This document shows, piece by piece, positions 2,801 to 47,785 of a stretch of DNA of 47,918 bases. The notes beneath the pieces were generated by a model, which did no database searches, had not been told where the DNA came from, and saw nothing but the letters and a program-made list of their open reading frames with translations. A program made the position numbers and the translations under genes. Origin of the DNA: a virus. The stretch lies in IMG/VR virus record IMGVR_UViG_3300046820_002247, positions 1 to 47,918 of that record; one strand, 5' to 3'. Each line of letters opens with the position of its first letter. Position 1 is the first letter of the stretch.

Positions 2801-2833
2801 TTTATATTTGTTTAATTTTATTATTATTATTTA

Positions 2834-3982: not shown

Positions 3983-3997
3983 CCGATGTTTTTATTA

Positions 3998-4005
3998 AAT
4001 AAATA
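3998..4005 (-). promoter_or_regulatory. Variant late-promoter-like octamer before the PT-repeat gene
   Basis: The coding strand reads TATTTATT, one mismatch from TATTTATA, 15 nt before ATG 3982. This spacing matches the exact copies at 10420, 19383, 31333 and 44440. It is supported only by this comparison. Confidence 0.4.
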
Positions 4006-4376: not shown

Positions 4377-6508
4377 TATGTTAAGCACATTATATCATAC
4401 ACGATTATCAAGTCAATAACAATTTCTTGACCTTGTAATGTAGTATTACCTCTTGTCGTCTCAATTGTTATTAAATTATCTGTTGGATTTACAACAACAC
4501 TACCAATACCCGGAACACTCAATAGTAACTGAGTAATAGTATCATAATATAAATTATCTGCAGGAACATTAACTAATGAAGTTGTAGTATAAAATGTATC
4601 ACTTGTAGTTAAACCTAATGGGTTTACAGAAACCTTTGCAGTAAAAGTGGCACTTATAAAATCACAACCCGTATTACCTAAAGTTAAGTCATAAAACCCT
4701 TCATTTAACATCTGTAATATTCCAAACTTAGTCGGTGAAGAAATATTGAATACCTCTGACCCCATAACATATGTTTGATATGAAGTTAAACTAGCATTAC
4801 AACTAATAGTTGTTGTACGAGCTAAAGAACAACCGTCACTACCAACAATAGTTAAACTATAAGTTCCTCCCGTTAATCCTGATACTTGAATTTGTTGTGG
4901 ATTATTTGGCACATTATCAGACCAATTGAAACTAAACGGTGTCTCACCTTGATTAATAAATGCGGTGATTTTACCCGAATTACCGGTACCACAAGATGTG
5001 CTATACAATGAAAAATCTAATGGCACACTTCCAAGTATTAAAATGTTGGCAGTTTGAATACAATCATTTGCGTCCGATACGGTAACAACATGATTACCCG
5101 CAGTTAAATTATTAAAAGTCACTGAAGTCAATGTTGTATCAATAATGTCATATACTCCGTTGTCAATTGAATAATCTAACGGTAATGTAGAACCAGTAGT
5201 CGTGAATATAGTTACAGAACCATTTGATTGTCCACAAGTTGTACCTGTAACTTGAGTTGAAATAGTATACTTGTTTTCAGCAATAATTGTTACGTCTTGC
5301 ATAAAGTAACAACCCGAATTATCACTAACCGCAACTGAATAATCACCCGTAGATAGACCTGAAAAAATTTGAGCTGAAAATGAACTACTAATACTTGAGG
5401 TACCAGCCGAAGATACTAAAGTATACGTATAGGGAGTTACTCCTCCAATAACTGATAACCCAATGGTACCATTAACACTTGAACAAGTTGAATTATTACT
5501 TGTTACTGAAACAGAAGAAATCCCATTTGGTGATGTGATTTGAGTTCCCGCAGTCATTTGACATAATCCGGCATCTGTAACTAAAAATGTATATGACCCT
5601 GAAGACAATCCTGTAATTGTAAATGTTTTGGAATAAGATACTTCAACAGCTCCCGTAGTTGCCGAATAATAATATGGTGCCGTTCCACCCGTTATTGTAA
5701 GGTTAATAACCCCATCCGAAGCAAAACAACTTGGTGGAGTTGCGGTTATTACTCCAAGTCCAACCGGTTGAACATCGACAATAGTTGCACCTTTACTTAT
5801 AAGACAACCATTATTATCTGTAACAGTTACTGAATACCCTCCTGATGTTAATCCTGTTATTGTTGTTCCCGTTGCCCCATTACTCCATAAATAAGTAAAT
5901 GGTGACTGTCCTGTAATACCTGTAATAGTAATTTTACCAATAGGTGTACCACCACAAGCAGAATTAGGAACCACATACAGACCATAATCTAATGGTGTTG
6001 ATTCCTCAACTATAAAATTTTGAGTATTGGCAGTACATCCACCTAAGTCCATCACTGTCATGTAATAAGTCCCGGCAGTTAAATTACCAAATTGTACTGT
6101 TGGTTGATTTGTTGTCGCGGATTGACTAAATACTCCATTCCCATGATATAAATAATAATCAGCACTTGAATATATTGTTGACGATGTTCCTGTAACAGAA
6201 CCATTATTTAAAGAACAAGTAGTATTTTGAACACCACTAATACTGGCACACACACCTGTAGAAATAGGTATACTTATCGTTGATGTTTGAGGTGAAGGTA
6301 TATCACTATCAGTTACAGTAATAAGATAATCACCACCACTAAGTCCGGCTTTAACAACCGGTAATGTATATTGTATATTTTGTGGTAGTAAAGGATTAAC
6401 CCAATCAATAATATAAGGTGCAGTACCTCCTGTAACTAGTAAACTAATTACTCCACTGAAATTATTGGCACAATCACCTGTTGTTGTTACTGTATAACTA
6501 AGAGCCAT
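4376..6508 (-). CDS. SprB-type repeat tail adhesin
   Basis: This 710-residue protein contains seven or eight repeats of roughly 75-85 residues. Each ends in a pattern such as GLTSGGYSVTVTDNNGC (also LTAGTYYMTVMDLGGC, LSTGDYSVAVSDNSGC) preceded by GGTAPYxYxW-like strands. This is the signature of the SprB repeat (PF13573), known from the SprB gliding adhesin and other Bacteroidota surface proteins. The region after about residue 600 departs from the repeat and may be a separate domain. The start ATG 6508 overlaps the stop of the 995-aa gene as TAATG, so translation is probably coupled. The likely role is a tail-tip or fibre adhesin contacting the host surface; that is inference. The repeat family call is fairly strong. 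Confidence 0.75.
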   Translation of the reverse strand: MALSYTVTTTGDCANNFSGVISLLVTGGTAPYIIDWVNPLLPQNIQYTLPVVKAGLSGGDYLITVTDSDIPSPQTSTISIPISTGVCASISGVQNTTCSLNNGSVTGTSSTIYSSADYYLYHGNGVFSQSATTNQPTVQFGNLTAGTYYMTVMDLGGCTANTQNFIVEESTPLDYGLYVVPNSACGGTPIGKITITGITGQSPFTYLWSNGATGTTITGLTSGGYSVTVTDNNGCLISKGATIVDVQPVGLGVITATPPSCFASDGVINLTITGGTAPYYYSATTGAVEVSYSKTFTITGLSSGSYTFLVTDAGLCQMTAGTQITSPNGISSVSVTSNNSTCSSVNGTIGLSVIGGVTPYTYTLVSSAGTSSISSSFSAQIFSGLSTGDYSVAVSDNSGCYFMQDVTIIAENKYTISTQVTGTTCGQSNGSVTIFTTTGSTLPLDYSIDNGVYDIIDTTLTSVTFNNLTAGNHVVTVSDANDCIQTANILILGSVPLDFSLYSTSCGTGNSGKITAFINQGETPFSFNWSDNVPNNPQQIQVSGLTGGTYSLTIVGSDGCSLARTTTISCNASLTSYQTYVMGSEVFNISSPTKFGILQMLNEGFYDLTLGNTGCDFISATFTAKVSVNPLGLTTSDTFYTTTSLVNVPADNLYYDTITQLLLSVPGIGSVVVNPTDNLITIETTRGNTTLQGQEIVIDLIIVYDIMCLT

Positions 6509-12363: not shown

Positions 12364-14044
12364 CAATCAATGGTTTTATTGCAACGTCAACACCATATAG
12401 GCTTTCGTTATAGTTTATTCCTTCCGGTATTAATCTAAAAGTAATATTGGAAAATGGATAATGAGAACTATTCAAAAAAGGATAATCAACTCCCCTTTCT
12501 AAATTATCAGTAAACCCATAAGTGTATATGTCTCTCCATCTAAACTGTTGGTCAGCACTTGAATAAAATGCATAACTTGGAATTTGCTCAATAAATCCAA
12601 CATCTCCGGTTTCAATATAATCAGAAAAAACCTTCAAAGTCATTGCGTTATGAGGTTGATAATAAAACCCTAATGTGTTAGTACTATAAAAATCAGATGT
12701 CTGAAAAACTTTTTGATTATAATTTATTTTATGGTAATAAGGTGAAATAACTCTTTCAATTTGTTCATAATCATTCCATTCACAAAAATCTCCATCCAAT
12801 ATATCTCCCTTTTGTAAGTCACCGTTATAATAAAATGTTTTAGTTGAACCACTAGTTTGTGTATATGAAGACAATGGAATTGTCGAATTTGATTCATTAT
12901 TATTTAAATCCCAATATGCATTAACTGTCTGTGTCAAATTGAATTCCCACCCTTGTTTTAACCCAACTCCGAATGACGGTTCATTAAAATACCCCGAATA
13001 ACCTTTATTAATTATTGTTAAAAAAATTTCACTTAATGGTCGTTTTTGATTATCAATATAACCGGCAAAATCTAAATCATATGCCGATGTCATATTATAT
13101 GAATTACTACTTGTTTTTTGTGATATCCTTGATAACTGATTAGGCGTTATGGAACTATACTCAAATTTTCTAGCCTCATTAAATACATTTTTTTCAAACC
13201 CAATCTTAGTAACAATAATATCGTCTAAATTAGTTATCACCTTATGTTCTCTAACATAATATTTTGATTTGGTCTCAGTTAAATTATCAGGATTGATTAC
13301 TCTCTTAAATGTCCCCGTAACATTATTTCCAAACGTTGTTCCGGTATACCCAATATCTAAAACATTAAATACATATGGGTCACTATCAAATAACCCATTA
13401 CCTAATGAGTAAACTTGAAATATATTTGAGTTCCTATAAGTTAAGGATAATTCAACATATTCATTTGGTGTTAATCCATGAGCACCAATACATTTAAAAG
13501 AAATTAAACCATTACCGTTAATCTCAATATTTTCGATAGAAAATGGAATACCATCTTCCGCAATCCAATTATCCGCCCAAGTACTAGCATAATACGCCAA
13601 TTTCTTTTTATAATTATTAGCATACGGATACGTTAAATAATACATCCAATTGTACGTATAAGCACTTTTAGATTTATACGGAAAATGTTGATTATCTACA
13701 ATAGGTCTAAAAAAATCAAACTCATAGAATTGAGGAAACCCTTTCCAAGTACCACTAACAAATGATTGTTCAGGATTTACATAATATAAATTATACTGAA
13801 ATGGTAAGAATGTTGTTGTACCGGTATAGGTATTGTCATACAAATAATTTACTTTGAATGTTGGTCTAAAAACCGTACAAGCTTGCCTTTCGTCATCATA
13901 AACTTGAGCAAGACTTATGGTTGCACTTCTATCATATTCAGTTATCTGTTGATTTGTCTGGTCTAAAGATATGGTTAACTTTTCATTAACAGAAGGAGCT
14001 CCTTTATACTTAAGATTACTTGGTATTATAGTATAATTATTCAT
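12350..14044 (-). CDS. Tail-associated structural protein, unknown function
   Basis: This 564-residue protein is rich in Tyr, Asn, Phe and Ser and has no membrane segment or catalytic motif that I can see. Its composition and probable beta-rich fold resemble baseplate-peripheral or fibre-attachment proteins. ATG 14044 lies 8 nt inside the end of the 1776-aa gene and its own end overlaps the next gene, so it is co-expressed with both. The C-terminus (IKPLIDECE) ends in an acidic Cys-containing tip. Function cannot be assigned from sequence. Confidence 0.6.
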   Translation of the reverse strand: MNNYTIIPSNLKYKGAPSVNEKLTISLDQTNQQITEYDRSATISLAQVYDDERQACTVFRPTFKVNYLYDNTYTGTTTFLPFQYNLYYVNPEQSFVSGTWKGFPQFYEFDFFRPIVDNQHFPYKSKSAYTYNWMYYLTYPYANNYKKKLAYYASTWADNWIAEDGIPFSIENIEINGNGLISFKCIGAHGLTPNEYVELSLTYRNSNIFQVYSLGNGLFDSDPYVFNVLDIGYTGTTFGNNVTGTFKRVINPDNLTETKSKYYVREHKVITNLDDIIVTKIGFEKNVFNEARKFEYSSITPNQLSRISQKTSSNSYNMTSAYDLDFAGYIDNQKRPLSEIFLTIINKGYSGYFNEPSFGVGLKQGWEFNLTQTVNAYWDLNNNESNSTIPLSSYTQTSGSTKTFYYNGDLQKGDILDGDFCEWNDYEQIERVISPYYHKINYNQKVFQTSDFYSTNTLGFYYQPHNAMTLKVFSDYIETGDVGFIEQIPSYAFYSSADQQFRWRDIYTYGFTDNLERGVDYPFLNSSHYPFSNITFRLIPEGINYNESLYGVDVAIKPLIDECE

Positions 14045-17000
14045 CTATTGAGTATTTTTCTTTGAATTTATCTAAAGCAGTTTCCCCTTTAATTATCCCA
14101 AAATAAAAATGATTAGGAGCACCAACTAAAAATCGTGTAGGGTACCCTGAATTAGGTTGAGGTACCGCGACATAAGTATAATTTAAAGGATTTGATGTAT
14201 CACCACTAACATTAAACAAATACCCTCTTTGATAGATATCACTAATGTTTGCATTTGGTCCGTAGAAATAACTATCATTAGTTAATCTTCTTCTATCTAA
14301 CCCTTGGTAATTATTCGAGAAGATATCCGCAGTGTTTGTCACCCAACTATTTTTTTCAGTACCAAAGATACCGGTTGCACTAGTTGGATTTATACTCCAT
14401 TGATAAAATGGTACCTCTTGAGATTTAATTCCATATGGGTATGTGATTGCATTCGCACCTGGAGATGGTCTAAAATCAATAACACCTGGACTTAAAAAAT
14501 CCTTATTTTGTAAATCAATTGTCGTTGATGAGAAATAAATTGCCATCGTTGGGTTACCATAACTACCTAATATTTGTACCGGGTCACTTGGGACTCCATT
14601 ACTTGCATAAAATTCAGGAGAAAATGGTATTACACCATACTCAGAATTAATTGACATTGTTTGAGCTAAATCTCCATCAATTCTTTTATAAGGTCTTGTA
14701 AATAATTGGTCTAAGTTATTATTAGGATTTAACGATATAATTTGTTGTAAAAAAGTTTCATCTGTAATTCTACTAATAACAAATAAATTAACCAAATCAG
14801 AAGTATCGGAATAACTTGTTGGATTTAAACTTTTCATAATATATCCTCTTGCTGATGGGTCAAAAATAATTTCTTGATAAAAATCATCTTTAATTCCTAA
14901 ATTTACAATTGTGGTTGGAAATAATAATTGTCGATTATTTGTTGGTGAAATTTGACCATTTACTGGTCTACCAATAAATTTACCGGTATTTTGATTCCAA
15001 GGACTACTTCTATAATAAAAAGTGTTTGTCTTAGTATCAAAATGGATTAATTGTTTTGGATAATCCGGAGCTTCCGGTTGATTATTTTTATCATAATAAG
15101 TGTCAACTTGAATCGGGAACGCATATAAAGTACCATTTACCCAATTATTAACAAATGATTGAGATAAAACTCCTCGACATAGACCATAAAAAAATCTAAA
15201 TCTAAAAGCCCACTCTGCAAAAGTACCTAAATCTTGACCTAAATCAGTCAATGGTCTATTGACCATAATGTAACAACCATTTTCTACAACATCATTTGCT
15301 TGACATCCATCTTTAATACCAAAATTAATACTATTACCACTATAACAATCAAGACCAACCATATTTTGACAGGTATTTAAACTACGAATAACATTTGTTG
15401 CACCTACCTGACCTTCAATATCCGGTGTCACAATACTAGCTCCTGTGCTAAATTGGGATGAACTAACTGAATAGCCATCACCTGAATCCACTAAATAAAC
15501 TGCAAATCCTAAATTTTGTTGTAATAAACTTGCATTATTTTGAGGACCAAAACCATTTTTATTATCACAAAAATCTGATGATGGTAAACGGTCAGTTCTC
15601 ATTACAATTTTATTAGAATCAACTAAACGTAATTTACCACTATTTGTGGTTGATACCCCTGTAAAACTACTGTATAAATTTGGACTATAATATAAAGATA
15701 ATGGTATTCCAATCCATCTTGTATAACCTTGGCGTACATTATTCAACTTCCATCCAAAGTCATAATATCTATCTTGAAAAGTTTTACTTTCTTTATCACC
15801 CCACATTATAGCTGCTCCCGATAAATCCTCAGCACTACTATAATAGTTATTTGAATTATAAGGTGAAACAACAGTATCAGAATAGTATCTATTTGTTGAA
15901 TAATACCCATTACTTACAGCCCTAACACCTGTAACCCCTCCATTTGAAAAGGGAGCTGAGTAATTGAATGTAGTACTTGCATCTAAACTACCATAATACC
16001 CAACATTACTTGTTGAGAATCCACTCCAAACAGTTGTTGGCGTTCCCGGTGTATATGAATACGTTGGAAAGAAAATTTGTGATTCAACTCTATGATTTTG
16101 AACCGAAATTGTAGAGCCCGGAGGTAACGCTTGAATTGGAATATTTAAACGAGTATTTCCTGTTATTATAACGTCATCTTCATTCGGATAACCTAAAATT
16201 TTACCAATACCATATTGATTAGTATATTTTGGAGAATATGGGTCAACACCTCTTTGTAAGATTAATATTTTTTGTTCTTTAAAATCCCCCAAAAGAGTTG
16301 TTGGTAAATTTTCAATAGGTCTGAATTTACCCCATCCACTACCGTCAATTAAATTCCAAACTTGGATTGGATTTGGAGCATTTAACGCTCCCCATATACC
16401 TGTCGACCCATTAAAGTTTGGATTAGTATAAGTTGTAACCCCATTAACCACTGTTGTTGTTATTGTAATTGCGGTTAAAACTTGATAATATTCAATATCT
16501 GATGGATAAATATATCTTTGACAATCAACACCTGTTGTCAATCCTGAATATTCATATTCCGCAGTACCCCCAATGGTACTAACGTTAATACAATATTCAT
16601 TACTAAATGAAGTAAAACCAGTTGTTGTAATTACTGTTGTCACCGTATAACCGGGACAAGTTTGATAAGTAATTGTACCAGGTTCTGTAATTTTAATAGT
16701 AAAACTAGCCACACAAGTATTACCTGTTATTTTAGGTAAATCATATACTTGAGTACTGTTAGATGTTTGTGTATTTGCAAAATTAACCGGAACGTTTAAT
16801 CTACTATTTAGATTAACAACCCCATTAATACCATTTAATAAATTACCTCCAACACTAGTTTGTCCTGACCATAAATAATTTGAATCTGTTGTTCTTGTTG
16901 GATTAATAAAAGTAATCATATCTCCAGCACTTAAGTCTTGGGTAGACAAAATAGTTAAAGTATTATCAAAATGATATTTACTACCATTTTGAGGTTTAGC

Positions 17001-19367
17001 AAATGTAACTTTAATCTTATTTTCTCCTGTAAAATATTTACCTCGAGTATTAAAAACATTTATCCTTTCACCAACAGGTAATGACATACCAACAACAAAT
17101 TCTCTTTCACCAGCATTAGGGTATATTGAAACACTTTCACTAGTGTTAATTTTAAAAATTTGGGGTTTATTACTTTTTGAAGCGTACCCTGCAATCCCAA
17201 CTACTTTCATATTTGTCGCAATTGAATTCCAATCATCAAAATCATCAATTGGAACATTCGCTCCATCAGCACCATTACCAGGATAAAACGCAAGTCCATT
17301 AGCTCCCACCATATCGCTACCATATTGATATTTAAAACCCGGTGATAAATTTAAATTAGTTTGATATGTAAGTGTATTATCATAATAACTGCTCGGACCT
17401 GATAATTGAGTAACTAATCCAGCTGCAGGTGGAGATTCATTAGTACCATCACCACCTCCAGGTTCAGTAGTTTCAGCGTCACATTCACACGCTTGACAGT
17501 CAGGATACTGTATCATTGGTAACTTAATACGCCCAAACTTATACGAAACAATTTCTCTAAATTTTAATGCTAAAAATAATGCAATTGCAGTCCATAATAA
17601 TCCTTTTAAAATAAATGGACCAACCTGCAATAATAATCCAAATGAAAATCCGGTAGCACCTGCAATTGCGGCATATGCTAGTTGAAATTCAAAATACGCA
17701 TTAAACCCAAATTGAACAATAAAATAAGCCAATATTGGAACCGCAAAATTATTCCATAAATAAGCAAGAAAATGATAAATAATAATTAATGGTATACCAA
17801 TTAATTGGAGTATTTGCATTAAAATCGCAAATATAAAATATAATAAGTCAAAATTTCTAAACCCATCATTTACAGGGAATTTATTAATTGTTGACGCACA
17901 ATCATTATTATCAATTTCTTTAATCCCAATAAATCTTCCTTTAGCACCACTCTTATATTCATCAATAAAACTAGCAACAGTATAAACTTTATTGAACTCA
18001 AATTGATAAAAAGTATCCTCACAATTTATTTTTGAATTTAATAATTGATTTTTTAATGTGGCTTGAGCAGGTTGGTTAAATCCTTGTGTATATCCCGACC
18101 AATCAAGACCAAAATAATATGATGATGATAGTCGTTGGTTTTCTATTGAACCAGTACTTAAATAATTTGGGTCAACTCCGGTACCTCCCCATCCATATTC
18201 TTTAACATTTGGAATTAAATAATAAGCTCTTTTCGTTTGTTCCGAAACACTTGGAGGTTGAGACCATTTAACTTTAAAACGATATTTTCCTTTTGTTGGG
18301 ATACCAATTGCAGGGTCATTTGAAAGTACTTTCTCTCCAAACTGGTTTGTTGTGAAATAATCCAAATTCATTGGTAACTCAGTTAACCACGTTCCATTAC
18401 CATCAATAATGTTACCCGATTGTTCCATTTGATATTGTTCTAATATCGGATTACCATCAGCATCATAATTAATTGTTTGTCTAATAGCTAAAATTTGTCC
18501 AGGTCCTGCAACTAATTCACATAAATTACCCATGTCATCTCTTGGTTTTGCGTTACTTCTAACACGAAAACCATCAGGTGAAGAAAATAGAGAACCCATA
18601 AAAACTGCGGTTGGTTGTATATCAACATTAGCATCTCCTCTCAAGTCAAAATCAACACGATTTACAGAAATTTGACAAATGTCTGGGTCTCCCCATAGAG
18701 GAGCAACTGATAAAGTTTTAGTTAAGGTGATAATTTGTGGTAATGATGATAAATCTGATGAAGTTTTAAAACGGTTACCCGCAACTTGACCTTCTGTCGC
18801 TAATCCAACTCTAATTAAATCTTGAGGTGTTAAAGAGAATTCACCGATGTCTGATAAATCAACATCCATTACTAAAGTTTGTGACCCTAATGGAACTCCC
18901 ATTATCATATAGTCACCACTCTCGTTTGTTTTGGTCGTATATGTATAATATTTGTCGTAAATTTCAAGAGCAGTGCCACCTGTTAAGACATCATCTCTTG
19001 TAGGTAAAGTTCCTGTTGCCGCGTGAGCAGAATAGGATTTTTCATAAGGTAAAAGATTGTATCTATATCCATCCTCATTTTTATCAGTTGGAGACTTATA
19101 AGGATAGATACTTGTTATTAGTGGATTAGATTCATCAACTGATGATATTGGAATAAAAACGGATACTCGAGCATTTGGAATACCAAATCCATTATTTGCA
19201 GTAACTCTCCCAACAACAACACCGTATTCAGAACAACTTCTACTATAAACGTCAGTTTGTTGTATTTTTAACGATAAGATTTCTAAGAACTCAAAATCTT
19301 GGTCTAACTGAACATTAATTGTTTTGTTAATCCCTAATTCGGTTCTAATTCTATATGACTGACCCAT
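14037..19367 (-). CDS. Giant tail protein with carboxypeptidase-regulatory-like N-terminus and membrane-type helices
   Basis: This 1776-residue protein begins MGQSYRIRTELGINKTINVQ. Residues about 45-185 look like a carboxypeptidase-regulatory/CNA-B-like Ig fold: EYGVVVGRVTANNGFGIPNA early, then NESGDYMIMGVPLGSQTL. Residues about 505-605 hold several long hydrophobic stretches (LLYFIFAILMQILQLIGIPL; FSFGLLLQVGPFILKGLLWT), enough for three or four membrane helices. A cysteine cluster (CQACEC) follows at about 623-628. The rest is Asn/Ser/Thr/Gly-rich and probably beta-structured. It lies just downstream of gp6 and heads the 19367-10448 unit, with an exact late-promoter-like box 15 nt before ATG 19367. 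It could be a giant baseplate or fibre protein that also inserts into the host membrane; that is inference. No T4 counterpart is recognised. Confidence 0.65.
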   Translation of the reverse strand: MGQSYRIRTELGINKTINVQLDQDFEFLEILSLKIQQTDVYSRSCSEYGVVVGRVTANNGFGIPNARVSVFIPISSVDESNPLITSIYPYKSPTDKNEDGYRYNLLPYEKSYSAHAATGTLPTRDDVLTGGTALEIYDKYYTYTTKTNESGDYMIMGVPLGSQTLVMDVDLSDIGEFSLTPQDLIRVGLATEGQVAGNRFKTSSDLSSLPQIITLTKTLSVAPLWGDPDICQISVNRVDFDLRGDANVDIQPTAVFMGSLFSSPDGFRVRSNAKPRDDMGNLCELVAGPGQILAIRQTINYDADGNPILEQYQMEQSGNIIDGNGTWLTELPMNLDYFTTNQFGEKVLSNDPAIGIPTKGKYRFKVKWSQPPSVSEQTKRAYYLIPNVKEYGWGGTGVDPNYLSTGSIENQRLSSSYYFGLDWSGYTQGFNQPAQATLKNQLLNSKINCEDTFYQFEFNKVYTVASFIDEYKSGAKGRFIGIKEIDNNDCASTINKFPVNDGFRNFDLLYFIFAILMQILQLIGIPLIIIYHFLAYLWNNFAVPILAYFIVQFGFNAYFEFQLAYAAIAGATGFSFGLLLQVGPFILKGLLWTAIALFLALKFREIVSYKFGRIKLPMIQYPDCQACECDAETTEPGGGDGTNESPPAAGLVTQLSGPSSYYDNTLTYQTNLNLSPGFKYQYGSDMVGANGLAFYPGNGADGANVPIDDFDDWNSIATNMKVVGIAGYASKSNKPQIFKINTSESVSIYPNAGEREFVVGMSLPVGERINVFNTRGKYFTGENKIKVTFAKPQNGSKYHFDNTLTILSTQDLSAGDMITFINPTRTTDSNYLWSGQTSVGGNLLNGINGVVNLNSRLNVPVNFANTQTSNSTQVYDLPKITGNTCVASFTIKITEPGTITYQTCPGYTVTTVITTTGFTSFSNEYCINVSTIGGTAEYEYSGLTTGVDCQRYIYPSDIEYYQVLTAITITTTVVNGVTTYTNPNFNGSTGIWGALNAPNPIQVWNLIDGSGWGKFRPIENLPTTLLGDFKEQKILILQRGVDPYSPKYTNQYGIGKILGYPNEDDVIITGNTRLNIPIQALPPGSTISVQNHRVESQIFFPTYSYTPGTPTTVWSGFSTSNVGYYGSLDASTTFNYSAPFSNGGVTGVRAVSNGYYSTNRYYSDTVVSPYNSNNYYSSAEDLSGAAIMWGDKESKTFQDRYYDFGWKLNNVRQGYTRWIGIPLSLYYSPNLYSSFTGVSTTNSGKLRLVDSNKIVMRTDRLPSSDFCDNKNGFGPQNNASLLQQNLGFAVYLVDSGDGYSVSSSQFSTGASIVTPDIEGQVGATNVIRSLNTCQNMVGLDCYSGNSINFGIKDGCQANDVVENGCYIMVNRPLTDLGQDLGTFAEWAFRFRFFYGLCRGVLSQSFVNNWVNGTLYAFPIQVDTYYDKNNQPEAPDYPKQLIHFDTKTNTFYYRSSPWNQNTGKFIGRPVNGQISPTNNRQLLFPTTIVNLGIKDDFYQEIIFDPSARGYIMKSLNPTSYSDTSDLVNLFVISRITDETFLQQIISLNPNNNLDQLFTRPYKRIDGDLAQTMSINSEYGVIPFSPEFYASNGVPSDPVQILGSYGNPTMAIYFSSTTIDLQNKDFLSPGVIDFRPSPGANAITYPYGIKSQEVPFYQWSINPTSATGIFGTEKNSWVTNTADIFSNNYQGLDRRRLTNDSYFYGPNANISDIYQRGYLFNVSGDTSNPLNYTYVAVPQPNSGYPTRFLVGAPNHFYFGIIKGETALDKFKEKYSIDE

Positions 19368-19462: not shown

Positions 19463-21301
19463 TTAAGAGAATGTTACTGATTGGAAATTTTTAACAGATA
19501 CTCTAATATCTTTGTTAGGGTATCTAACTTGATATACTTGAGATGGTTGAGCAAAGATAGTATCATCTACTGTTGCAATTTGTTTAGTTTCAGGGTCTGA
19601 ATATTCCATAGACGTTTCCGCAGATGAATATTGACCACCAACATTATTGTAAACATTCAGTCCAGCAACTGTTAACACACCGTTTTGATTTTGAACAATA
19701 CTTTTTAATTCTGATAAATAAACATTTTGACCTAACTCTCGTGTTTGAGGATTAAAGTAAGTTGATATTCTATCAACAACATCTGAAATAACCTGTCCTG
19801 AATTTTGTGCAGAATCTAAAACAATTTGAACATCAATACTTAAGTCAATAACCTCAGCAGTTAAAATTGAGATGTAATCATTCATCATTCTATAATTTGA
19901 TAGATAATTTGCAACATTCTGTCTTAAAGTATCTGATACAATACTTGTTAATTTTCCTGAAGTGTCATAAGATAATAATTGGATTAATATCTTATTATTA
20001 TTTTCCGTGATTGAAACTTTAGCGGGTGCACCAAACTCCGCAGGCATATTTCTAATAATCGATTCGTAATCTTGAACCGTAACCGCTCTTTTTTGTGCAG
20101 AGAAGTTAAATGATACATAGTTTCTAATTTCTTCCAATGATGGGACACCAGAACCTCCAATAGCCGCAGTCACGTTGTTACATCTTAATGAATTAACCAC
20201 TGATGAGTTTGTTGTTTCAGATGGTCCGTTTACAAAGAAATTCACAGTACCAATTTGATTGATAACATTTGTCCCTAAATTTGTTGCCAATCCACCACCA
20301 ACTCGATATTGAATGAATAGTGTTGAGTTAGGAGTTAACGCAGACCCTAATGAGAAATTGTTTGAATATCTTTGTAAATCAATTGTAGCACCAACTGTTG
20401 TAAATTGGTCTAAAGCATCTTGAGCAGTATTAGTACCACCACCAAATGTCATTTTCTTAAATCCTTCCGGAGTATATTCTGTAATAAATCTATTAGAAGT
20501 TTGAATATATTTTCCAACTTTAATACCCGGTTGGTCTGAAACTTTTGTTGGGTCTTCGATGAATACTCTGTCTTCCGCTAACGCATCAACCTCATACCAT
20601 TTGTTTGATACCCCTAAAAATTCCGCAGTTGACGGTACATTCGTATACTCTGTACCACTTTTTAGTAATACACTTGTAATTCCTAACACATTTTTTTCAG
20701 GTAAGAATAGTTCGAAGAATGGTTTAACATCATTAGGAGTAATAACTCTTTTGAACACTTTAGTAATACCATTAACAACCAATTCTCTTTTTGTAATTGT
20801 ATAGTTAATAAGGACATTATTTGCATTAAAATTTGGTATTTTCAAACGGTTTGGAAACCCTTGAGCATTGTATGGTGACGTAAAATCAACATCATAAATG
20901 TTTTCAAACACAATACCAGCCCCAACAACTTGAGAACCTCTTGTCAATGTCCCTAAGTATCTCTCATCCTCTTTATCCCCGAAAGCCGGAACTGTGATAG
21001 AAAAATCAACTAACGCAACTGATGGTCTTTGTCCCGGTAGTTTTAAACCATAAGTTCTAGCAATATTGTAGATAGATGACCTTTGTTGAGCATACTGTAA
21101 AACAGTTTCTTGGATACTTCTATCTATATGGTAATGTAAGTTATCCGCAACCGCAGCATTCAAGTCTATGAATACAGAGAACACAGAAGCATCGTTGAAG
21201 TCCTGTATTAATTCAGGGTAGTAAGTTCTTACATAGTTTAATAACTCAGTTCTTATTCCCTGATAATCTCTTGTAGTATATGATATATTACGATTTGCCA
21301 T
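19463..21301 (-). CDS. 6: Baseplate wedge protein, gp6/baseplate-J-like
   Basis: This 612-residue protein is close to the length of T4 gp6 (660 aa). The N-terminus (TTRDYQGIRTELLNYVRTYY, then NDASVFSVFIDLNAAVADNL) is the typical helical start of gp6 and baseplate-J proteins. Next come the strand-rich core (LGTLTRGSQVVGAGIVFENI) and a C-terminal part with RAVTVQDYESIIRNMPAEFG, a conserved baseplate-J segment. gp6 forms the inner wedge ring that links gp25, gp53 and gp7 and changes shape on tail contraction. The gene directly follows gp25 with a 6-nt gap, the same neighbour pair as in many contractile tails. Start ATG 21301 is unambiguous. Confidence 0.9.
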   Translation of the reverse strand: MANRNISYTTRDYQGIRTELLNYVRTYYPELIQDFNDASVFSVFIDLNAAVADNLHYHIDRSIQETVLQYAQQRSSIYNIARTYGLKLPGQRPSVALVDFSITVPAFGDKEDERYLGTLTRGSQVVGAGIVFENIYDVDFTSPYNAQGFPNRLKIPNFNANNVLINYTITKRELVVNGITKVFKRVITPNDVKPFFELFLPEKNVLGITSVLLKSGTEYTNVPSTAEFLGVSNKWYEVDALAEDRVFIEDPTKVSDQPGIKVGKYIQTSNRFITEYTPEGFKKMTFGGGTNTAQDALDQFTTVGATIDLQRYSNNFSLGSALTPNSTLFIQYRVGGGLATNLGTNVINQIGTVNFFVNGPSETTNSSVVNSLRCNNVTAAIGGSGVPSLEEIRNYVSFNFSAQKRAVTVQDYESIIRNMPAEFGAPAKVSITENNNKILIQLLSYDTSGKLTSIVSDTLRQNVANYLSNYRMMNDYISILTAEVIDLSIDVQIVLDSAQNSGQVISDVVDRISTYFNPQTRELGQNVYLSELKSIVQNQNGVLTVAGLNVYNNVGGQYSSAETSMEYSDPETKQIATVDDTIFAQPSQVYQVRYPNKDIRVSVKNFQSVTFS

Positions 21302-21307
21302 ACAATA

Positions 21308-21778
21308 TTAAATATTAATGATAATGAAATCACTCGGACCAAAAGTTGATTTATCGGTTGAGTAATCTATTTTTATTTTTGCGGTATATTCTGAAGTTCC
21401 TTTACCCGGAAATCTATAAACTGACGATTCACTACTCCCCACCGTTGCAGTACCTGTTGCTAAGTCGACTTCTTCTTGAGGGTCAGCGGGACTTATTGTG
21501 ATTTGGTTCAATAACAAATTTGGCATAAAAGCCGCCACAGCATCTCGAATATCAGATTCAATAGCATCAAATGTTAACCCATCAAATGGTTCAAACAAAA
21601 ACTCATAAAGTCTTGTCCCAAATGTTGGTAAATAATATCTTGAACCTTTTCGAGTCAAAAGTAAGTGAATTAAATCTGCTTTAATTTCTTGTGCTTCAAA
21701 TTCAGTTAGTTGTAAATAGTCACCCTTTACCGAATCCCTAAAAGGGAAATTAAGACCATATGTTGTTCCGTCTGCCAT
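21308..21778 (-). CDS. 25: Baseplate wedge protein gp25 (GPW/gp25 family)
   Basis: This 156-residue protein matches the gp25/GPW family in length and pattern. It has a short N-terminal segment ending in a Phe-Pro-Phe turn, the helix IKADLIHLLLTRKGSRYYLP, then FGTRLYEFLFEPFDGLT, and finally PADPQEE and the closing strands. gp25 sits at the sheath-wedge interface and helps start sheath assembly. An exact TATTTATA box lies 30 nt before ATG 21778, and a strong terminator hairpin just upstream of that separates it from nrdA. It begins the 21778-19463 unit with gp6. Confidence 0.9.
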   Translation of the reverse strand: MADGTTYGLNFPFRDSVKGDYLQLTEFEAQEIKADLIHLLLTRKGSRYYLPTFGTRLYEFLFEPFDGLTFDAIESDIRDAVAAFMPNLLLNQITISPADPQEEVDLATGTATVGSSESSVYRFPGKGTSEYTAKIKIDYSTDKSTFGPSDFIIINI

Positions 21779-37300: not shown

Positions 37301-39060
37301 TCATCTAATAATCTAACAAATGCCTCTGCCGATGCCATTACAACTGCAATCAGATTCCTAACGGTTGGTTTAAATCCAAGACCTGTATCAGTATCTTCAA
37401 TTTTTCTCAATAATTCCGCAGAAATTGATGATTCATATTCTGATAGTTTCTTATTCGCATTTGTTTCAAGTAATGAAATTTGATTATCAAATCTATTATC
37501 ACCTTCAAAAATAAAAAAACTAGCGTTCACAGTTTCAGTTACTTGTCTTCCATTAACCTCATTTACTACAACAATAGGAATTTTTGTTTGATATAACTGT
37601 TCTTTAAGAGCATTAATATCCTGTTCCGTTGGTAAAAGTTTTCCTGTTTGTATTCTAACCGTTTCTTTCCAGTTAATAGCCCCATCCGCAGGTGGGTCAA
37701 CTGTAAAATTAACAAACTTAATTGGATTTGGTATTGGAGAAACACCATTTTTACCTAATGTTGCGTTTTCAGATAAAGCTTTATTAAACTTATTAACATA
37801 ACTTTCTAATAATTTAGCCGCAGTTTCTTTCTCCGTTTGTTCTAATTTTTTAAAAATATAAATTCTTTCATTTGTATTATTCAATACAATTGGTTTTGGG
37901 TCAAGATAAGTATTAAACCAAGAAGTATTTGCTCCTCTTACTGCAGAAAAATATTGTTTTAAAACCTCTTTATAACTTCGAATATTAGTTAGAGGTTCAA
38001 CTTTAGCCTTTGGAAATGAATCCATAATATTATTCTCAAAGGTACTTAACTTAGTCATTAATTGAAATACTGTTAACTCGGGTAAATCAGGAGAAATTAA
38101 TCCTTTTGCTTTATATTCACTATAAAGTTCAGCAATTTTTTGATACCCTCTTTCAGAAACTATTTCAGTAGTAAACGCATCACCGCTTTGTGAGTTGTTT
38201 TTTGAAACAGCTCCCTGTACACTTGATTGAGATTCAGCAGCTTTGTTTGATTCTTGAGTACCTCCCGGAGTTGTTGAAACATTGAAAGTTTGTCCATACA
38301 TATGAGGAACTGCCAATAAATGTCCCATTGAGATTTCATTAAGGACATTAAACTTATATCCTTTAAATTGTAAGTCCACTTGATAGTTACCACTAAATGT
38401 GTTAAATGTCGCATGAAATTTTTCTAAATTTAATTGATATCTGATTGCCTGCCCATAATACCCTTTCAATGTTAAATAAAATGGTGGATAAGGAAGATTA
38501 AAGAAAGCAGAATATGGTGAATTATTACCTAATGAAAACAATGCCTTTCCTTGCACATCTTCTAACTTCATACTGACTGAAGGTACAAAAGATGAGTTAG
38601 TTGTTACATTAATTGATGTGATTCCTAATAAACCATTATCAAATACATTTTTTAAGTCAGCGGGTGAACTAATAGTGTAAGCTTGATTACCATCACTTGC
38701 AGGAACTCTTTTTTCCATCATTTGATTATCACCCTTAAACTTAGTTGAATTATTACCAGTCAACTCATCATAATAACCCACACCTAAAAAATTATCTTTA
38801 GTTGGTTTTAAAAAATTCATCTTGGCAACTGATATAGTTCTAATTCTATCTTCAGGACTTGCCCCTACCGCAAGTTTAGTTCTTGGAAGAACTTCCGCTT
38901 CCAAATTTGCATACATCACTAAACTCTCATGGTCAATTAATCTTTCTTGTATTTTACCCGCTGAGTTAATTGTTTTGTTAGGGTCAACAACAATAATATT
39001 ATTGTAATCAAACTCTACTAATATATCTCCACTGTTGTCTGCTTTTAAGTTACCTGCCAT
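31351..39060 (-). CDS. Giant baseplate/hub-like protein with TIG domain
   Basis: This 2569-residue protein is the largest in the window. An N-terminal domain (about 150-260) has the pattern FFNLPYPPFYLTLKGYYGQA, then SGNYQVDLQFKGYKFNVL. Near residues 1840-1890, GNAMLQPTMYFNLRHVPMF and GPYMIQQVEHSIQPGQFQTS resemble the closing segment of phage tail hub (gp27/gpD-like) proteins. Residues about 2018-2085 (YGWNNNF to FASINNFVSFMSARL) loosely resemble a peptidoglycan-hydrolase fold, with low certainty. A clear IPT/TIG Ig domain follows at about 2176-2265 (SITSFSPLSGNTGTVVQVNG). The C-terminal 300 residues look strand-rich. The gene overlaps the gp53-like gene by 11 nt. It probably spans hub and puncturing functions split between several proteins in T4. 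Confidence 0.6.
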   Translation of the reverse strand: MAGNLKADNSGDILVEFDYNNIIVVDPNKTINSAGKIQERLIDHESLVMYANLEAEVLPRTKLAVGASPEDRIRTISVAKMNFLKPTKDNFLGVGYYDELTGNNSTKFKGDNQMMEKRVPASDGNQAYTISSPADLKNVFDNGLLGITSINVTTNSSFVPSVSMKLEDVQGKALFSLGNNSPYSAFFNLPYPPFYLTLKGYYGQAIRYQLNLEKFHATFNTFSGNYQVDLQFKGYKFNVLNEISMGHLLAVPHMYGQTFNVSTTPGGTQESNKAAESQSSVQGAVSKNNSQSGDAFTTEIVSERGYQKIAELYSEYKAKGLISPDLPELTVFQLMTKLSTFENNIMDSFPKAKVEPLTNIRSYKEVLKQYFSAVRGANTSWFNTYLDPKPIVLNNTNERIYIFKKLEQTEKETAAKLLESYVNKFNKALSENATLGKNGVSPIPNPIKFVNFTVDPPADGAINWKETVRIQTGKLLPTEQDINALKEQLYQTKIPIVVVNEVNGRQVTETVNASFFIFEGDNRFDNQISLLETNANKKLSEYESSISAELLRKIEDTDTGLGFKPTVRNLIAVVMASAEAFVRLLDDVHTNAWNVKYDPVRKNAILDNPSSAPSTETRGVVVRDPFAIMNDANLLNSQEPVYPWPLFFVETPEDKKGRFQLKYIADPTIVDRTQGYLFDKWPEVEFVEEYMKGITQKFSVPLAPPPLDNERDTNRININAIEFPSAGLPYVNKEEVKFFYEIWERQFLTSHYSGLIRANSNQIDELIKLNIEAEVNNIVRGLGISSPYLTLKLKNYNLKANSYPEFLRTISNNGTGRAYQDYIRDFFVTPYIKNLVDNSYSILSTSDIGKIPQVSTKSLALETLLKNASNEPLVVDTLPYTDPTWCLTNLSSSNKSVGNEVYDTKKTLKIFEPRKIISNFNDVYDFTTNRPVTNFSFYQNLSPSVVATLSTALNPYGLNEFYVTRVPKDFVATEGYCDSTTPTNILPFKTTTSMLNTPYFVNSIMNGVQNNRTSDPYPYVQSAYLFLNSLPLATLRERYKTKTDTIVDELDYISSCLKKFGAIHKLPYAWVLKYGSIWHRYKKYKESNVDILSTAWTNFDYTTNYSPILSSNTQNYKFNYNSLPISITLQEETSITANMNIGFYPKVINDFNVFYNGFELYDNYTNDEIQKSVDSGMKLYNFTDSNISANQNGKSLSLTTYSVLLSSSNYYPDVNCNPVSNTKGTDYFVVPSFGNPINQTEISCLTNLTTTATTVVNLTSNPNVYNGSVRTLWSAPNYGYFDSNQIAYPKPDSYINLINSGETQSPLYFLNGDNYTKIEEIFSVFEKKILDSFEQEFLNFSKPITNSSTGAEVAQFETSVVQVNATFRNFQSLFRNLMTVPVQSKGVSDLTYFSNTIGNQYNVFQAGIKDFMNYDILFRYGNPSNYRRRIFDSYLSHNNTQKVVDPIEFQPYVQNTLPTKTSSLSLSQSQLLNPNAWKALETEVGFSTINNVRYSSTGSYITDFFIDNNILFSVENVVLLTPIIKMYATQKLKNPSTTVAQFQAQINQYLTNESVLQDNFLNLVLDGVRKELPDQQQLPEKTVQTVIDGQQSKVENYEVFKSLNDKWIAGSDYKTKTLFEDILFLDRASRNIGDTILLDIFEMRNTFSQKSLNEGMSVFTFISGLLRKNNFTVMNLPAYINFYNVQDVDGTTIPNRAEGSLEFANNLWGTFLNVDYRKSSSKMVCFYVGKPSQYLELPKGNFRFRDDAFDMSRASENPLIENQVGKKDWGVSNKCVGFTVDIGIRNQNVFYSFNVSQDNGSATSESIATQINMVDQASGKNVATQNASLYNLYKQRSYTCSVVCLGNAMLQPTMYFNLRHVPMFNGPYMIQQVEHSIQPGQFQTSFQGIRQGIYDLPAIDSFIQSMNQNLLTKLEGLLKIKKDTINVLSASTNSNKASNTVQSANNTKGTTNECGSQVLPIYLNKQFQATNAVLTGITETEFASVLKRIMPNNPELATIIYCISYLRTFQKDSNSNLGKFYGWNNNFATAPLNVDYGQIDGTFLNTYSCVNLNPNPSTKGTTPVANFASINNFVSFMSARLRERVQQILDLGLVKYYACYWPIKNDKVPESYYDTHIKDYAETKETFDKALTSALSVGVATKAIVEDLKNQINKVESQGSSNGVPTTTAVTSKLSCPPSSITSFSPLSGNTGTVVQVNGISFDGTTAITVNGVSVPATGFTVFNDTTLRFNTPIIGTGTVVNKGKIVITTPNGTATSTDNYTFDPAITASAASSPGGYNNPQNQTANAPQSETINTNPQETGPDPLVTVIDDSIKGELTNELTISVSPTAGVWVIQTNVEMVVSVFDEVKENNQVKRTLNREVKKIITNYVNNNVFKITYNQIADMLINQPISEFKEIPIKDKQVVIIQFTVKSDAGDKIKYPQPISRSANFYFTQSRYVTTSVVDESRPGSLIKVSETQSGVLPNFSGPDYYNIKKPAGGYITLQFTCTKLINKGGFEVYSIPSIDKQKITIVNNSDTKYTNVITVDGLGVFQAEVQYTSEDFVVTDTTSSQFGKPISAGAVSPPFTL

Positions 39061-39373
39061 AATAATAAAAATGATTTTCTAATGCTCCCTTATAGTCCTG
39101 TAATGAAGGTAGTAATGGAAATGGTATAATCAATACCGCACCATCATATATGGTATTTTCTAATCCACCAAATTGAGGATTAGCTTGGAGTATTAACCAA
39201 CTAAAATATGGAGAATCATAATAATCTTGAGATACTTTATCTAATCGACTTCTACCCACTTTATAAATAAATGCCTTATCTGTAGGTTTTTGAGGTAACT
39301 GCACGTAAGGTACAACGGTTTGTTCACCGTTAATTAGAAATTCACTATACCTATTCCAATATTGAAATGCCAT
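39050..39373 (-). CDS. Baseplate wedge protein, gp53/LysM-like
   Basis: This 107-residue protein has a LysM-like core: VSQDYYDSPYFSWLILQANP then GGLENTIYDGAVLIIPFP. This is the helix-turn-helix plus strand pattern of phage gp53/LysM-like baseplate proteins. T4 gp53 (196 aa) joins wedges to the hub, and in phages this fold often acts as a structural adaptor, not a cell-wall binder. ATG 39373 overlaps the 1683-aa stop as TAATG and its end overlaps the 2569-aa gene by 11 nt. It is shorter than T4 gp53, so the symbol is left open. Confidence 0.65.
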   Translation of the reverse strand: MAFQYWNRYSEFLINGEQTVVPYVQLPQKPTDKAFIYKVGRSRLDKVSQDYYDSPYFSWLILQANPQFGGLENTIYDGAVLIIPFPLLPSLQDYKGALENHFYYYGR

Positions 39374-44452: not shown

Positions 44453-46276
44453 TTAATAGGAATTTGAAACAGGTTCTTTTGATTCACCATCAGGTACTAA
44501 CCTAACAATATAATCCTTAAATCTTGATTCATTAAAGGTAGTGGTTAAAATTTGTTTTAGTTGTTCTGTTGAAACACCATTGGGAGCTTTAACATCAACT
44601 TCGATTTTACCTCCAACATCAACAGTTCCTTTAGTTGTTTGAGTTGTTACAGTACTTTGTCCATTCTGTAATGTTGCAGCCCTATTTCCTCCTGATGGAG
44701 TTAATGGTGACGACGACGTTGATACTTTACCTCCATAAGATTGAACAGCTTTATTAACATTACCTTTTATCATTCTTTCTCCCGCAGTGTTGTTTGTTAA
44801 TCCCGCCGCAATTTTTTCACCCACTTCTTTTAATACTTCAGTAAATCTTTTTTGAGAAGCTTCTAAAACACCACCAAGACCACTTATTCCATTTGTAAAC
44901 GCACTACTAAGAGGTTTGTTACCTTCTTTTAAATTTATGGCAACATTACCTAACTCTTTTAGTACTCCTTCACTTAAATCCCTAAAATCTTTGGCTTTGA
45001 ATGCATCCGATGTCTCACCAAGAGTTGTTTTAATAACTCTTTGTGATGCCGCAATCCCTTTTGTTATTTGTTTTGGACTTATTAATCCTTGAGATATGGC
45101 TGAGTTCATCGCTTTTATATTTGCCAAAATATCTTCATCAACACCTAATTGTAATTTAGCAATTTGTTCAAGAGTTTTAGGTCCGGTCTTTTGTTCCTCA
45201 ATAAGTTTATTCATTTCTTGTTGAGTAATTTCCCCTAAGTCTTTATAAACTTTTTCACCTTTTTCATCCGTAACCTCAACTTGATACTTACCATCCTTCA
45301 TTGTAGCAATATTATTAAGATATTGTTTGTCTTCTTCATTTTCAAAAACTATTGATGGGTTAATAGATGAAATTCTTTTATCTAATTCAGCGGCGGCTAA
45401 TGCAGATTTTGATAAATTTTCAAAACTGGTATTAGTTGCTTTAGCAAGTTCTCTTAAGGTTAATACACCTTGAGGGTTAATTTTAAACGATTTTGTTTTT
45501 TCGTCGTACTCCGTAAATTGTTTTGTTGCTTTAATTAAACTATCTTGTAATCCTGCTGGGTCAGTAAGTGACTGATTCATCAATTGGAATGGGTCAGCCA
45601 AATTACCCATTGAAACACCTAATCTTTGAAGTGCCGCAGCTGTTTCAACCGCACCTTCAGGGTCTAAAACTTTTTCAGCAAACTGAAAAGTTTCTCTCAT
45701 ATCGAATCTTAACATTGACGCTTGAGCCGCCATTTTTGTTAACCCTTTAACACCACCTTCAAATTGAAACCTATTCATTTGTGCCATATTATCGGTCACA
45801 TCTTTCATTACTGTTTTAGTATTACCACCAATACTTTGAATATAATTAATCGAATCTTCTAATTGTGGTCCAATTTGTCCGATACCAACACCAACATCTA
45901 AAAAAGAATTACTTAAACTTTCAGCACTACCCCCAATCAATTCAGTTGCAGCAAAAAGTTTTTCCACATCTTCGGTATTTGCAATAACATTACGTCTTGA
46001 CGCCTCTGCAATACCAATCATTGTTTTTTGGACATCTTTTATATCTCCACCTAAACGAGCAACTCTTGGAGCTGCATCGGAAACCGCCCTATACGTTTCA
46101 GTGAGTCTTTCTTGTCCTTGTCCAAAAGCTTTATTGAGCTCGACTTGGGCTTTATAAGTGTCCTCAATTGTTTTTGCTAACGTTTCAAAATTTATTTTAA
46201 AAGCTTCAGCTAATTGTTTACTATAACTTAATGAGCTTTTACCTGCGTCTTCTAATTTTTTTTCTTCGTCTCCCAT
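44453..46276 (-). CDS. Tail tape measure protein
   Basis: The tape measure sets tail length and is ejected with DNA. The 607 residues, close to T4 gp29 (590 aa), are overwhelmingly helical. Residues 1-170 hold heptad-like helices, followed by Ala/Gln/Met-rich helices (FEGGVKGLTKMAAQASMLRF) and a Ser/Thr/Gly-rich linker (about 500-550). The compact C-terminal domain (GKIEVDVKAPNGVSTEQLKQ) resembles the end of many tape measures. No clear transmembrane stretch is visible. It comes after the tail tube and gp26-like genes and before the baseplate giants, as expected. A terminator and promoter-like box lie just upstream. Confidence 0.82.
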   Translation of the reverse strand: MGDEEKKLEDAGKSSLSYSKQLAEAFKINFETLAKTIEDTYKAQVELNKAFGQGQERLTETYRAVSDAAPRVARLGGDIKDVQKTMIGIAEASRRNVIANTEDVEKLFAATELIGGSAESLSNSFLDVGVGIGQIGPQLEDSINYIQSIGGNTKTVMKDVTDNMAQMNRFQFEGGVKGLTKMAAQASMLRFDMRETFQFAEKVLDPEGAVETAAALQRLGVSMGNLADPFQLMNQSLTDPAGLQDSLIKATKQFTEYDEKTKSFKINPQGVLTLRELAKATNTSFENLSKSALAAAELDKRISSINPSIVFENEEDKQYLNNIATMKDGKYQVEVTDEKGEKVYKDLGEITQQEMNKLIEEQKTGPKTLEQIAKLQLGVDEDILANIKAMNSAISQGLISPKQITKGIAASQRVIKTTLGETSDAFKAKDFRDLSEGVLKELGNVAINLKEGNKPLSSAFTNGISGLGGVLEASQKRFTEVLKEVGEKIAAGLTNNTAGERMIKGNVNKAVQSYGGKVSTSSSPLTPSGGNRAATLQNGQSTVTTQTTKGTVDVGGKIEVDVKAPNGVSTEQLKQILTTTFNESRFKDYIVRLVPDGESKEPVSNSY

Positions 46277-46329: not shown

Positions 46330-46499
46330 GTGTTATCTTCAATCCACTTATCTAACAAATATTTTCTAACAAATAGTGGCATTGTTTGAAAATCTTGATA
46401 AGTTATGTTCATTAATTTGTTCAAATAGTAGAATTCATCTATCTGTCCTTTTCTATAATCAGAAGAAAGGACGAAAAAACTCAACCCCAAATCCGACAT
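46320..46499 (-). CDS. Small overlapping ORF, probable second tail-assembly chaperone (T-like)
   Basis: This ORF has 59 codons from ATG 46499 and overlaps the 3' end of the gp26-like gene by 41 nt in the +1 frame. The product is mostly helical: DEFYYLNKLMNITYQDFQTM, then PLFVRKYLLDKWIED. The Met-Pro before a basic helix and the small size recall the second chaperone domain (gpT type) encoded just before tape measures in many phages. Either it uses its own ATG, or it is made as a fusion by +1 slippage at TTTTTTC (46479-46473), which would give about 293 residues. No Shine-Dalgarno sequence is seen, as for other genes here. The frame is short, so coding status is probable and not certain. Confidence 0.6.
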   Translation of the reverse strand: MSDLGLSFFVLSSDYRKGQIDEFYYLNKLMNITYQDFQTMPLFVRKYLLDKWIEDNTKD

Positions 46500-47202
46500 T
46501 AACTGTCATCTTTTCTCCTGATGGGGTGATTACAACTCGACTCATGTCTAATCTTGGTTCATTATCATTCATAAATTTTCTTATGAATTTTGAATCTAAA
46601 ATTGGCATTTGTTCGATAAACTTAGCTATTTCTGATTTATCAGTACTTCCATTTACCTCTATAATTTCTTTTTGTAACCTCCAAGTTACTTTTGGAACAA
46701 CTCTTCCTTGAGGATATGAATCTTCTAACTTGCTTATTTCTAAAATCTCACCATAAGTTATAGGCTTTAATTTTATTGTAGCCTGTGATTTAGGTAATTG
46801 AGTAATAAAAGCACCATCTTCATTAGGTGTTTGTCCATTAATAACATTTAACGAATCTAAAGAAACTGTTGTTTGAAATGGCTTTTTGGTTGATTGGTCA
46901 ATTAAATTTAAATTAATCTCAGGTCCAAAACCAGTATTTCTTAAAAAAATTAAAATTGCTTCAACATCTCCCTCTAACATATCTTCAATCCTAAGGTCTG
47001 GTTCGTAGATTTTACCTCTTAATAGTGTTGAGGTCATATCATTCCCACCCGCCATTAAAATATTTTCGTCATTAGCTGTTAGATAACCTACCTTAATAGA
47101 TTTCTTTTTATTTTTGTAAAACACTCCTCCCGATGGTAGTGGTACTACATCATGTGGTAACGTAAAGTTTTGTTGTCCGTATTCTATTGTTTGATTTTCC
47201 AT
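46459..47202 (-). CDS. gp26/PF12322-like baseplate-hub or tail-assembly protein
   Basis: This 247-residue protein has the pattern LPSGGVFYKNKKKSIKVGYL, then TANDENILMAGGNDM and DVEAILIFLRNTGFGPE. This matches the T4 baseplate family (PF12322, gp26-type), whose members usually start with a Pro-Ser-x-Gly-x-x-Tyr motif and contain a GDxxAILxxxRxxxYGxE-like helix. T4 gp26 takes part in hub assembly. Here the position between tail tube and tape measure also fits a tail-assembly chaperone. A terminator T-tract ends directly at ATG 47202. A small ORF overlaps its end in another frame, as in G/GT systems. Confidence 0.72.
   Translation of the reverse strand: MENQTIEYGQQNFTLPHDVVPLPSGGVFYKNKKKSIKVGYLTANDENILMAGGNDMTSTLLRGKIYEPDLRIEDMLEGDVEAILIFLRNTGFGPEINLNLIDQSTKKPFQTTVSLDSLNVINGQTPNEDGAFITQLPKSQATIKLKPITYGEILEISKLEDSYPQGRVVPKVTWRLQKEIIEVNGSTDKSEIAKFIEQMPILDSKFIRKFMNDNEPRLDMSRVVITPSGEKMTVNVGFGVEFFRPFF
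46473..46479 (-). other. Possible +1 frameshift site
   Basis: On the coding strand GAG TTT TTT CGT contains TTTTTTC, 12 nt before the gp26-like stop codon. A tRNA-Phe on TTT can re-pair with TTC after slipping one base forward, which moves into the frame of the 59-codon ORF. A shift is not shown, only allowed. Confidence 0.35.
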
Positions 47203-47296: not shown

Positions 47297-47785
47297 TTAA
47301 TAAACTAATACACAACGGTCCATTCTTAATGATACACTAATGTCAGCAAGACCATCAGTACTATACCCTAACGAACCAAAATCAACACTAGTTAAGAATG
47401 TACCATAGAGAATCCATTTTTCAACCACAACTCCTGTTGGGTCTAACATCTCAAGGTCAATATCTTTTTTATAACCCGCTGCATAACCCATACGACCTGT
47501 AACAGATTCAGCGTGTAAACGAACCCATTCCATAAGAGCTTGTGCAGCAGATGGTCCAATAGGGTCTCTGAATTTAACAGGAATTTCATCCCAATTAAAT
47601 CTACCCGCAACATAGGTAGATGTATTTAAAAATTGTATTTCAGTAGAAGCAATTTTAATTTTAGGTCTTGCAGTACTTTCTACAAACCATTCGTTAATCC
47701 CTAAGCTTGATGGAAACCTTAGTATGAATCGATTCTGTCTTTTCGGTTCGTAAGGAATCGGCATTTTCATCAATAAATCAGCCAT
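47297..47785 (-). CDS. 19: Tail tube protein, gp19-like
   Basis: The tail tube protein polymerises into the inner tube through which DNA passes. The 162 residues match T4 gp19 (163 aa) in length and pattern: N-terminal IPYEPKRQNRFILRFPSSLG, the middle ARPKIKIASTEIQFLNTSTY and RFNWDEIPVKFRDPIGPSAA, and the closing LADISVSLRMDRCVLVY strand. These are the beta-sandwich strands and the conserved FRDP-type loop of PF06841. The start ATG 47785 follows an AT-rich leader with a variant late box 32 nt upstream. The hairpin after it separates it from the gp26-like gene. Confidence 0.92.
   Translation of the reverse strand: MADLLMKMPIPYEPKRQNRFILRFPSSLGINEWFVESTARPKIKIASTEIQFLNTSTYVAGRFNWDEIPVKFRDPIGPSAAQALMEWVRLHAESVTGRMGYAAGYKKDIDLEMLDPTGVVVEKWILYGTFLTSVDFGSLGYSTDGLADISVSLRMDRCVLVY

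Follow-up and report, generated by a model that had tools for sequence, protein, structure and literature searches.

In a widespread lineage of uncultured contractile-tailed phages with probable Bacteroidota hosts, the membrane-penetrating part of the tail may have moved from the tape measure protein (TMP) to a protein of the baseplate module. We offer this reading, including the span of the lineage over freshwater phages and gut or rumen giants, as a tentative one. The more local claim, that a long hydrophobic block in this baseplate-module protein is a membrane-active helical element which took over the job of the TMP hydrophobic domain, has in our judgement close to an even chance. The new, testable point is the complementary distribution of hydrophobic segments between the baseplate protein and the TMP, which at the level of sequence is a strong lead and not proof, since it corresponds to about two evolutionary changes. 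If the relocation is true, the part with which these tails cross the membrane differs from the one used by any characterised phage.

The window, i.e., the whole stretch of 47,918 nucleotides that was analysed, is an IMG/VR virus record with a T4-like tail module and a replication module (PHROGs/Pfam), the latter including ribonucleotide reductase and a DnaB-like helicase. It belongs to an uncultured, contractile-tailed phage, probably with a host in the Bacteroidota; freshwater phages with predicted Bacteroidetes hosts, the largest of 331 kb, are on record (PMC9723584). Unless stated otherwise, all features given below lie on the minus strand. The tail genes include those for a tail tube protein (47297..47785, PHROG 4542), a baseplate hub-family protein (46459..47202, PHROG 150), gp25-like (21308..21778) and gp6/J-like (19463..21301) baseplate wedge proteins, both assigned by PHROGs/Pfam, and, by a weak match, a gp53-like baseplate wedge subunit (39050..39373, PHROG 7145). 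The ORF encoding the 1776-aa protein with the hydrophobic block (14037..19367) lies immediately downstream of the gp6-like wedge gene, with gp25 also nearby.

Other genes of the window deserve mention. Collagen-like repeats make up most of an ORF of at least 933 aa (2-2800), which continues past the window edge, and this repeat probably accounts for the ORF at 3-2096 on the opposite strand, as an antisense artefact. The adjoining gene encodes a 382-aa protein (2834-3982) with a long TPTPTNTPT low-complexity repeat; both products are probably tail fibre or decoration proteins. In a 1683-aa protein of the baseplate region (39373-44424), residues 854-918 weakly match an OmpA/Pal-like peptidoglycan-binding family (E 0.02). 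The 995-aa protein encoded at 6508-9495 had no family hit; by eye it has a gpI/gp7-type wedge look, appearing more gp7/gpI-like than the 1776-aa protein, and it weakly matches a protein of phage Mel-JY01.

Searches with the 1776-aa protein stayed below the Pfam cut-off, gave no informative PHROG and matched nothing in NCBIfam or, at E ≤ 1, in the PDB; profiles A1 and A2 had no PDB match at E ≤ 10. No gp7 match was found in PHROGs or the PDB, and neither the protein nor its relatives matched INPHARED. The Ig-like N-terminus claimed in the preliminary description corresponds to low-scoring matches that recur in position: residues ~48-170 (18858..19226), an Ig/transthyretin-like region, match CarboxypepD_reg (PF13620) at 17.2 bits, below the Pfam gathering score of 32.3. 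Such matches recur at the same position in 5/5 family members scanned, all of them sub-threshold, and the region forms beta strands in the AlphaFold2 model. Towards the other end, the conserved C-terminal part starts with an NWVNG motif (residues 1407-1411, 15135..15149).

The membrane-length hydrophobic stretches first noticed at about residues 505-605, followed by CQACEC, are confirmed. Hydropathy and alignment place three to four membrane-type segments at residues 506-603 (17559..17852), where KD19 reaches 2.56 against at most 1.08 in the rest of the protein, and only 4 of 98 residues are D, E, K or R, against 16.6% elsewhere in the protein (binomial 1e-4). Neither the protein nor the rest of the window has another long hydrophobic run, and no other ORF comes close. 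The single best 19-residue window is unremarkable compared with whole-protein shuffles, in which the KD19 maximum averages 1.81 and goes up to 2.88; the run of ~98 residues and its conservation exceed chance. A chance hydropathy peak was rejected, the first segment being kept in 68/68 sequences. It had also been stated that a core of this kind is rare among tail proteins. The block's KD60 of 1.49 tops all of 20 T4 tail proteins (maximum 0.82, in gp29; gp7 has 0.32), but the statement is too broad, one membrane-type segment being present in gp7 and another in gp29.

We found 450 stretches related to the 1776-aa protein in viral contigs and built an alignment of 68 non-redundant full-length sequences, one of them from the window and the other 67 from homologues. 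The most conserved part of the block is its first segment, residues 508-540, which holds Q521 and G524-x-P526. The segment aligned to it has a mean KD of at least 1.43 in every sequence, is uncharged in 56 and never has more than two charges. Beyond it the sequence is variable and the aligned block length ranges from 40 to 99 aa; measured motif to motif in the 54 of 68 rows with a motif match, block sizes cluster near 45, 60-70, 97 and 104-106. Conservation is ~75-90% over the first 400 residues and 27-32% in the block's second half (68 sequences). The flanks are fixed, with NKFPVNxGFRNFD ahead of the block and KLPMxTYPxCxxCxC behind it. C490 (17898..17900), shortly N-terminal of the block, and the three cysteines of CQACEC (residues 624-629, 17481..17498; C624, C627 and C629) are invariant in 68/68 sequences and may together form a clip, held by a metal or by disulfides, at the base of the block. 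The family-mean flank charge is acidic on the N side (-2.9) and basic on the C side (+3.0), which would agree equally with a hairpin or with an odd number of spans.

Structure prediction had been named as a check on the membrane reading. AlphaFold2 with 68 sequences gave a poor model of residues 1-905 (pLDDT 53.7 overall). The block is one of its best-predicted parts (pLDDT ~72-89) and consists of helices at 504-570 and 576-601. A homologue fragment that includes the whole C-terminal part (L071) was modelled at pLDDT 69.1 and repeats the pattern, with helices at 51-116 (~66 residues) and 121-143 (23 residues) followed by a well-predicted beta-rich region. A fold search with this model, of limited quality, gave no match with E ≤ 0.001 among PDB and viral structures; a hit to a Marseillevirus protein involved a single helix and was discarded as trivial. 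The prediction thus upholds a helical block, and the models fit membrane helices and a buried bundle alike.

It is necessary to consider that the helices might pack between subunits as a hydrophobic bundle within the baseplate and never meet lipid. A predicted helix of ~66 residues is longer than one membrane span, and the T4 wedge protein gp7, annotated with a ‘predicted integral membrane domain’, has a membrane-type segment of its own (KD19 2.07). However, the KD60 of gp7 falls far from that of the block (0.32 vs 1.49), the large length changes and strong drift in the second half of the block are unusual for a packed core, and a buried core leaves the loss of TMP hydrophobic domains, described below, unexplained. 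We consider it unlikely.

A genome scan identified four distant relatives (L218-L221), one of which (L221) is cut off. A hydrophobic block occupies the matching position in L219 (2220 aa), and a search led by L219 found 161 relatives in viral contigs, many of these contigs measuring 100-412 kb; dataset numbers point to rumen or gut phages. Among distinct relatives of this type, 69/69 have a hydrophobic segment, nearly all near residues 450-490. L218 (747 aa) and L220 (728 aa) have no block. These short relatives lack the whole stretch of residues ~506-1395 (15183..17852), i.e., the block, the cysteine motif and a large beta-rich region, its ends being judged by eye against L218. Among the matches listed in a search led by L220, at least about 20 loci are of this short-core type (~680-760 aa) without a block, and many others are long forms with one. 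The first segment of the block is thus kept in all 68 close sequences, and the short-core relatives lack the block. In the cultured outgroup phages immuto and Mel-JY01, the wedge order is the same and no 1776-aa gene follows gp6.

The phage's own TMP is the 607-aa product of 44453..46276, placed by gene position: in Flavobacterium phage immuto, too, the annotated TMP gene comes after those for tube and hub. Homologues of the 607-aa protein are of variable length (L303-L317, L335-L346), measuring 598-656 aa in the window group and mostly ~860-1450 aa in gut or rumen phages, which suggests longer tails in the latter. The possibility that the 1776-aa protein is itself the TMP was rejected; it has membrane-type helices as TMPs may, but the TMP's place in the gene order is held by 44453..46276. 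The helices are thus present in the 1776-aa protein and absent from the phage's own TMP.

This contrast extends across the family. We counted as a segment each 19-residue window with KD ≥ 1.6 and no more than one charge, without overlaps. On this measure there were none in the TMPs of 15/15 window-type phages (the window and 14 orthologues) and none in 3/3 TMPs of other block-bearing long forms. Short-core phages have four to six TMP segments in 9/11 cases and one in the other two, one of these TMPs being truncated; the TMP of the L218 phage was too fragmentary and was left out of judgement. The outgroups have hydrophobic TMPs, with eight segments in immuto and six in Mel-JY01, where the TMP was placed by position only. 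The two types of TMP align over ~121-510 of the L220-phage TMP; beyond ~510, short-core TMPs have a hydrophobic domain and window-type TMPs a shorter, non-hydrophobic tail (Wimley-White octanol values served only as a cross-check on hydropathy in this alignment). Because both outgroups have hydrophobic TMPs, the data suggest that this state is ancestral and was lost in block-bearing phages, and the block looks like a replacement of the TMP hydrophobic domain. Against relocation, ten gut or rumen phages carry the block plus zero to two TMP segments.

Another hydrophobic tail-region protein exists in the L220 phage (438 aa, L220:1374-2690), with a hydrophobic C-terminus and weak matches (homologues of ~670-720 aa) in 4/6 gut or rumen records and in the L219 genome. 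No match to it was found in 10 window-type records, and a second viral hydrophobic protein was therefore rejected as an explanation.

How much weight the TMP contrast bears depends on the number of independent changes. The block state changes twice on a tree built from the first 300 residues; an uncorrected Mann-Whitney test (p 1.7e-5) overstates the contrast, and an independent-pairs test has only one or two pairs and cannot reach significance. With so few changes, block gain and loss of the TMP domain might have occurred in one lineage for unrelated causes. The outgroups immuto and Mel-JY01 fit the trade-off too, and a second contrast has the same direction: L381 has no block and its TMP-like genes have one segment each, while in L377 the block is weak and the TMP has no segment. 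This agreement is weakly supported, involving weak branches and single segments. Mere coincidence seems to us quite improbable. The L381 contig, of 380 kb, has two separate TMP-like genes, each with one membrane-type segment (G039: 2544-4004 and 228861-230129).

We take the complementary distribution as independent support for a membrane role of the block. TMP hydrophobic segments were proposed as a membrane channel in T5 (PMC10038345) and R4C (PMC10276861), while in TP901-1 chaperone recruitment was considered a likelier role of the TMP hydrophobic regions than insertion into the membrane (PMC5099701). Either function, channel or chaperone recruitment, could have moved. An assembly role would have the block anchor baseplate assembly at the inner membrane face of the producing cell, or recruit a tail chaperone, and stay idle at ejection. 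It accounts for the complementarity equally well, the TP901-1 results tie TMP hydrophobic regions to chaperone recruitment and assembly (PMC5099701), and Streptomyces contractile injection systems depend on the membrane protein CisA to contract and to function (PMC12237407). On the other hand, a membrane-anchored tail part must be extracted from the membrane and then shielded in the released virion. We see this as a fairly unlikely explanation.

We favour a role at ejection over one in assembly, with about even odds and by analogy, because the RcGTA/R4C megatron is a proposed precedent for membrane-inserting baseplate helices. We hypothesize that, at infection, the helices would leave a shielded position in the baseplate, enter the host membrane, where they would anchor the tail tip, and might help to form a DNA conduit. 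Reaching the inner membrane is not obvious, since contraction would leave a neighbour of the wedge outside the cell; the helices might instead act at the outer membrane, or the protein might lie near the tube tip. The preliminary description had proposed a membrane-inserting ejection element. The block is real, conserved and predicted helical, with TMP segments lost in complement, and insertion at infection remains the conjectural part; the interpretation is plausible, better supported than before and unproven. A 2023 study of phage E217 described it as unclear whether passage across the inner membrane is made by the tube or by ejected proteins (PMC10329688). A natural exchange of a hydrophobic element between two tail proteins offers a comparative handle on DNA passage in myophages, and for each phage type it predicts the protein to target by deletion, labelling or imaging.

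Several known systems resemble parts of this arrangement. T4 gp7 is likewise encoded right after gp6 and has a membrane-type segment; however, it is a single short one (KD60 0.32), and no sequence match was found. CisA of Streptomyces is a membrane protein required by a phage-tail-like machine, but it is a separate bitopic membrane protein outside the particle (PMC12237407). Closer in kind is the megatron of RcGTA and R4C, a multidomain baseplate protein whose hydrophobic helices are proposed to enter the membrane (PMC7296036, PMC10276861). The RcGTA hub has a four-cysteine Fe-S site and the window protein has C490 and the CQACEC cysteines. Megatron and hub structures in the PDB gave no sequence match to the 1776-aa protein (protein and profile searches), and the iris-penetration helix of the megatron is short and N-terminal, in a trimeric hub of non-contractile tails, whereas the block is internal and spans ~100 residues. 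Finally, the TMPs of T5 (pb2), R4C and TP901-1 share with the window protein several membrane-type helices in a tail protein, as do those of immuto, Mel-JY01 and the short-core relatives. They differ in where the helices lie: in this phage, the TMP is free of them and a baseplate-module protein encoded beside gp6 carries them.
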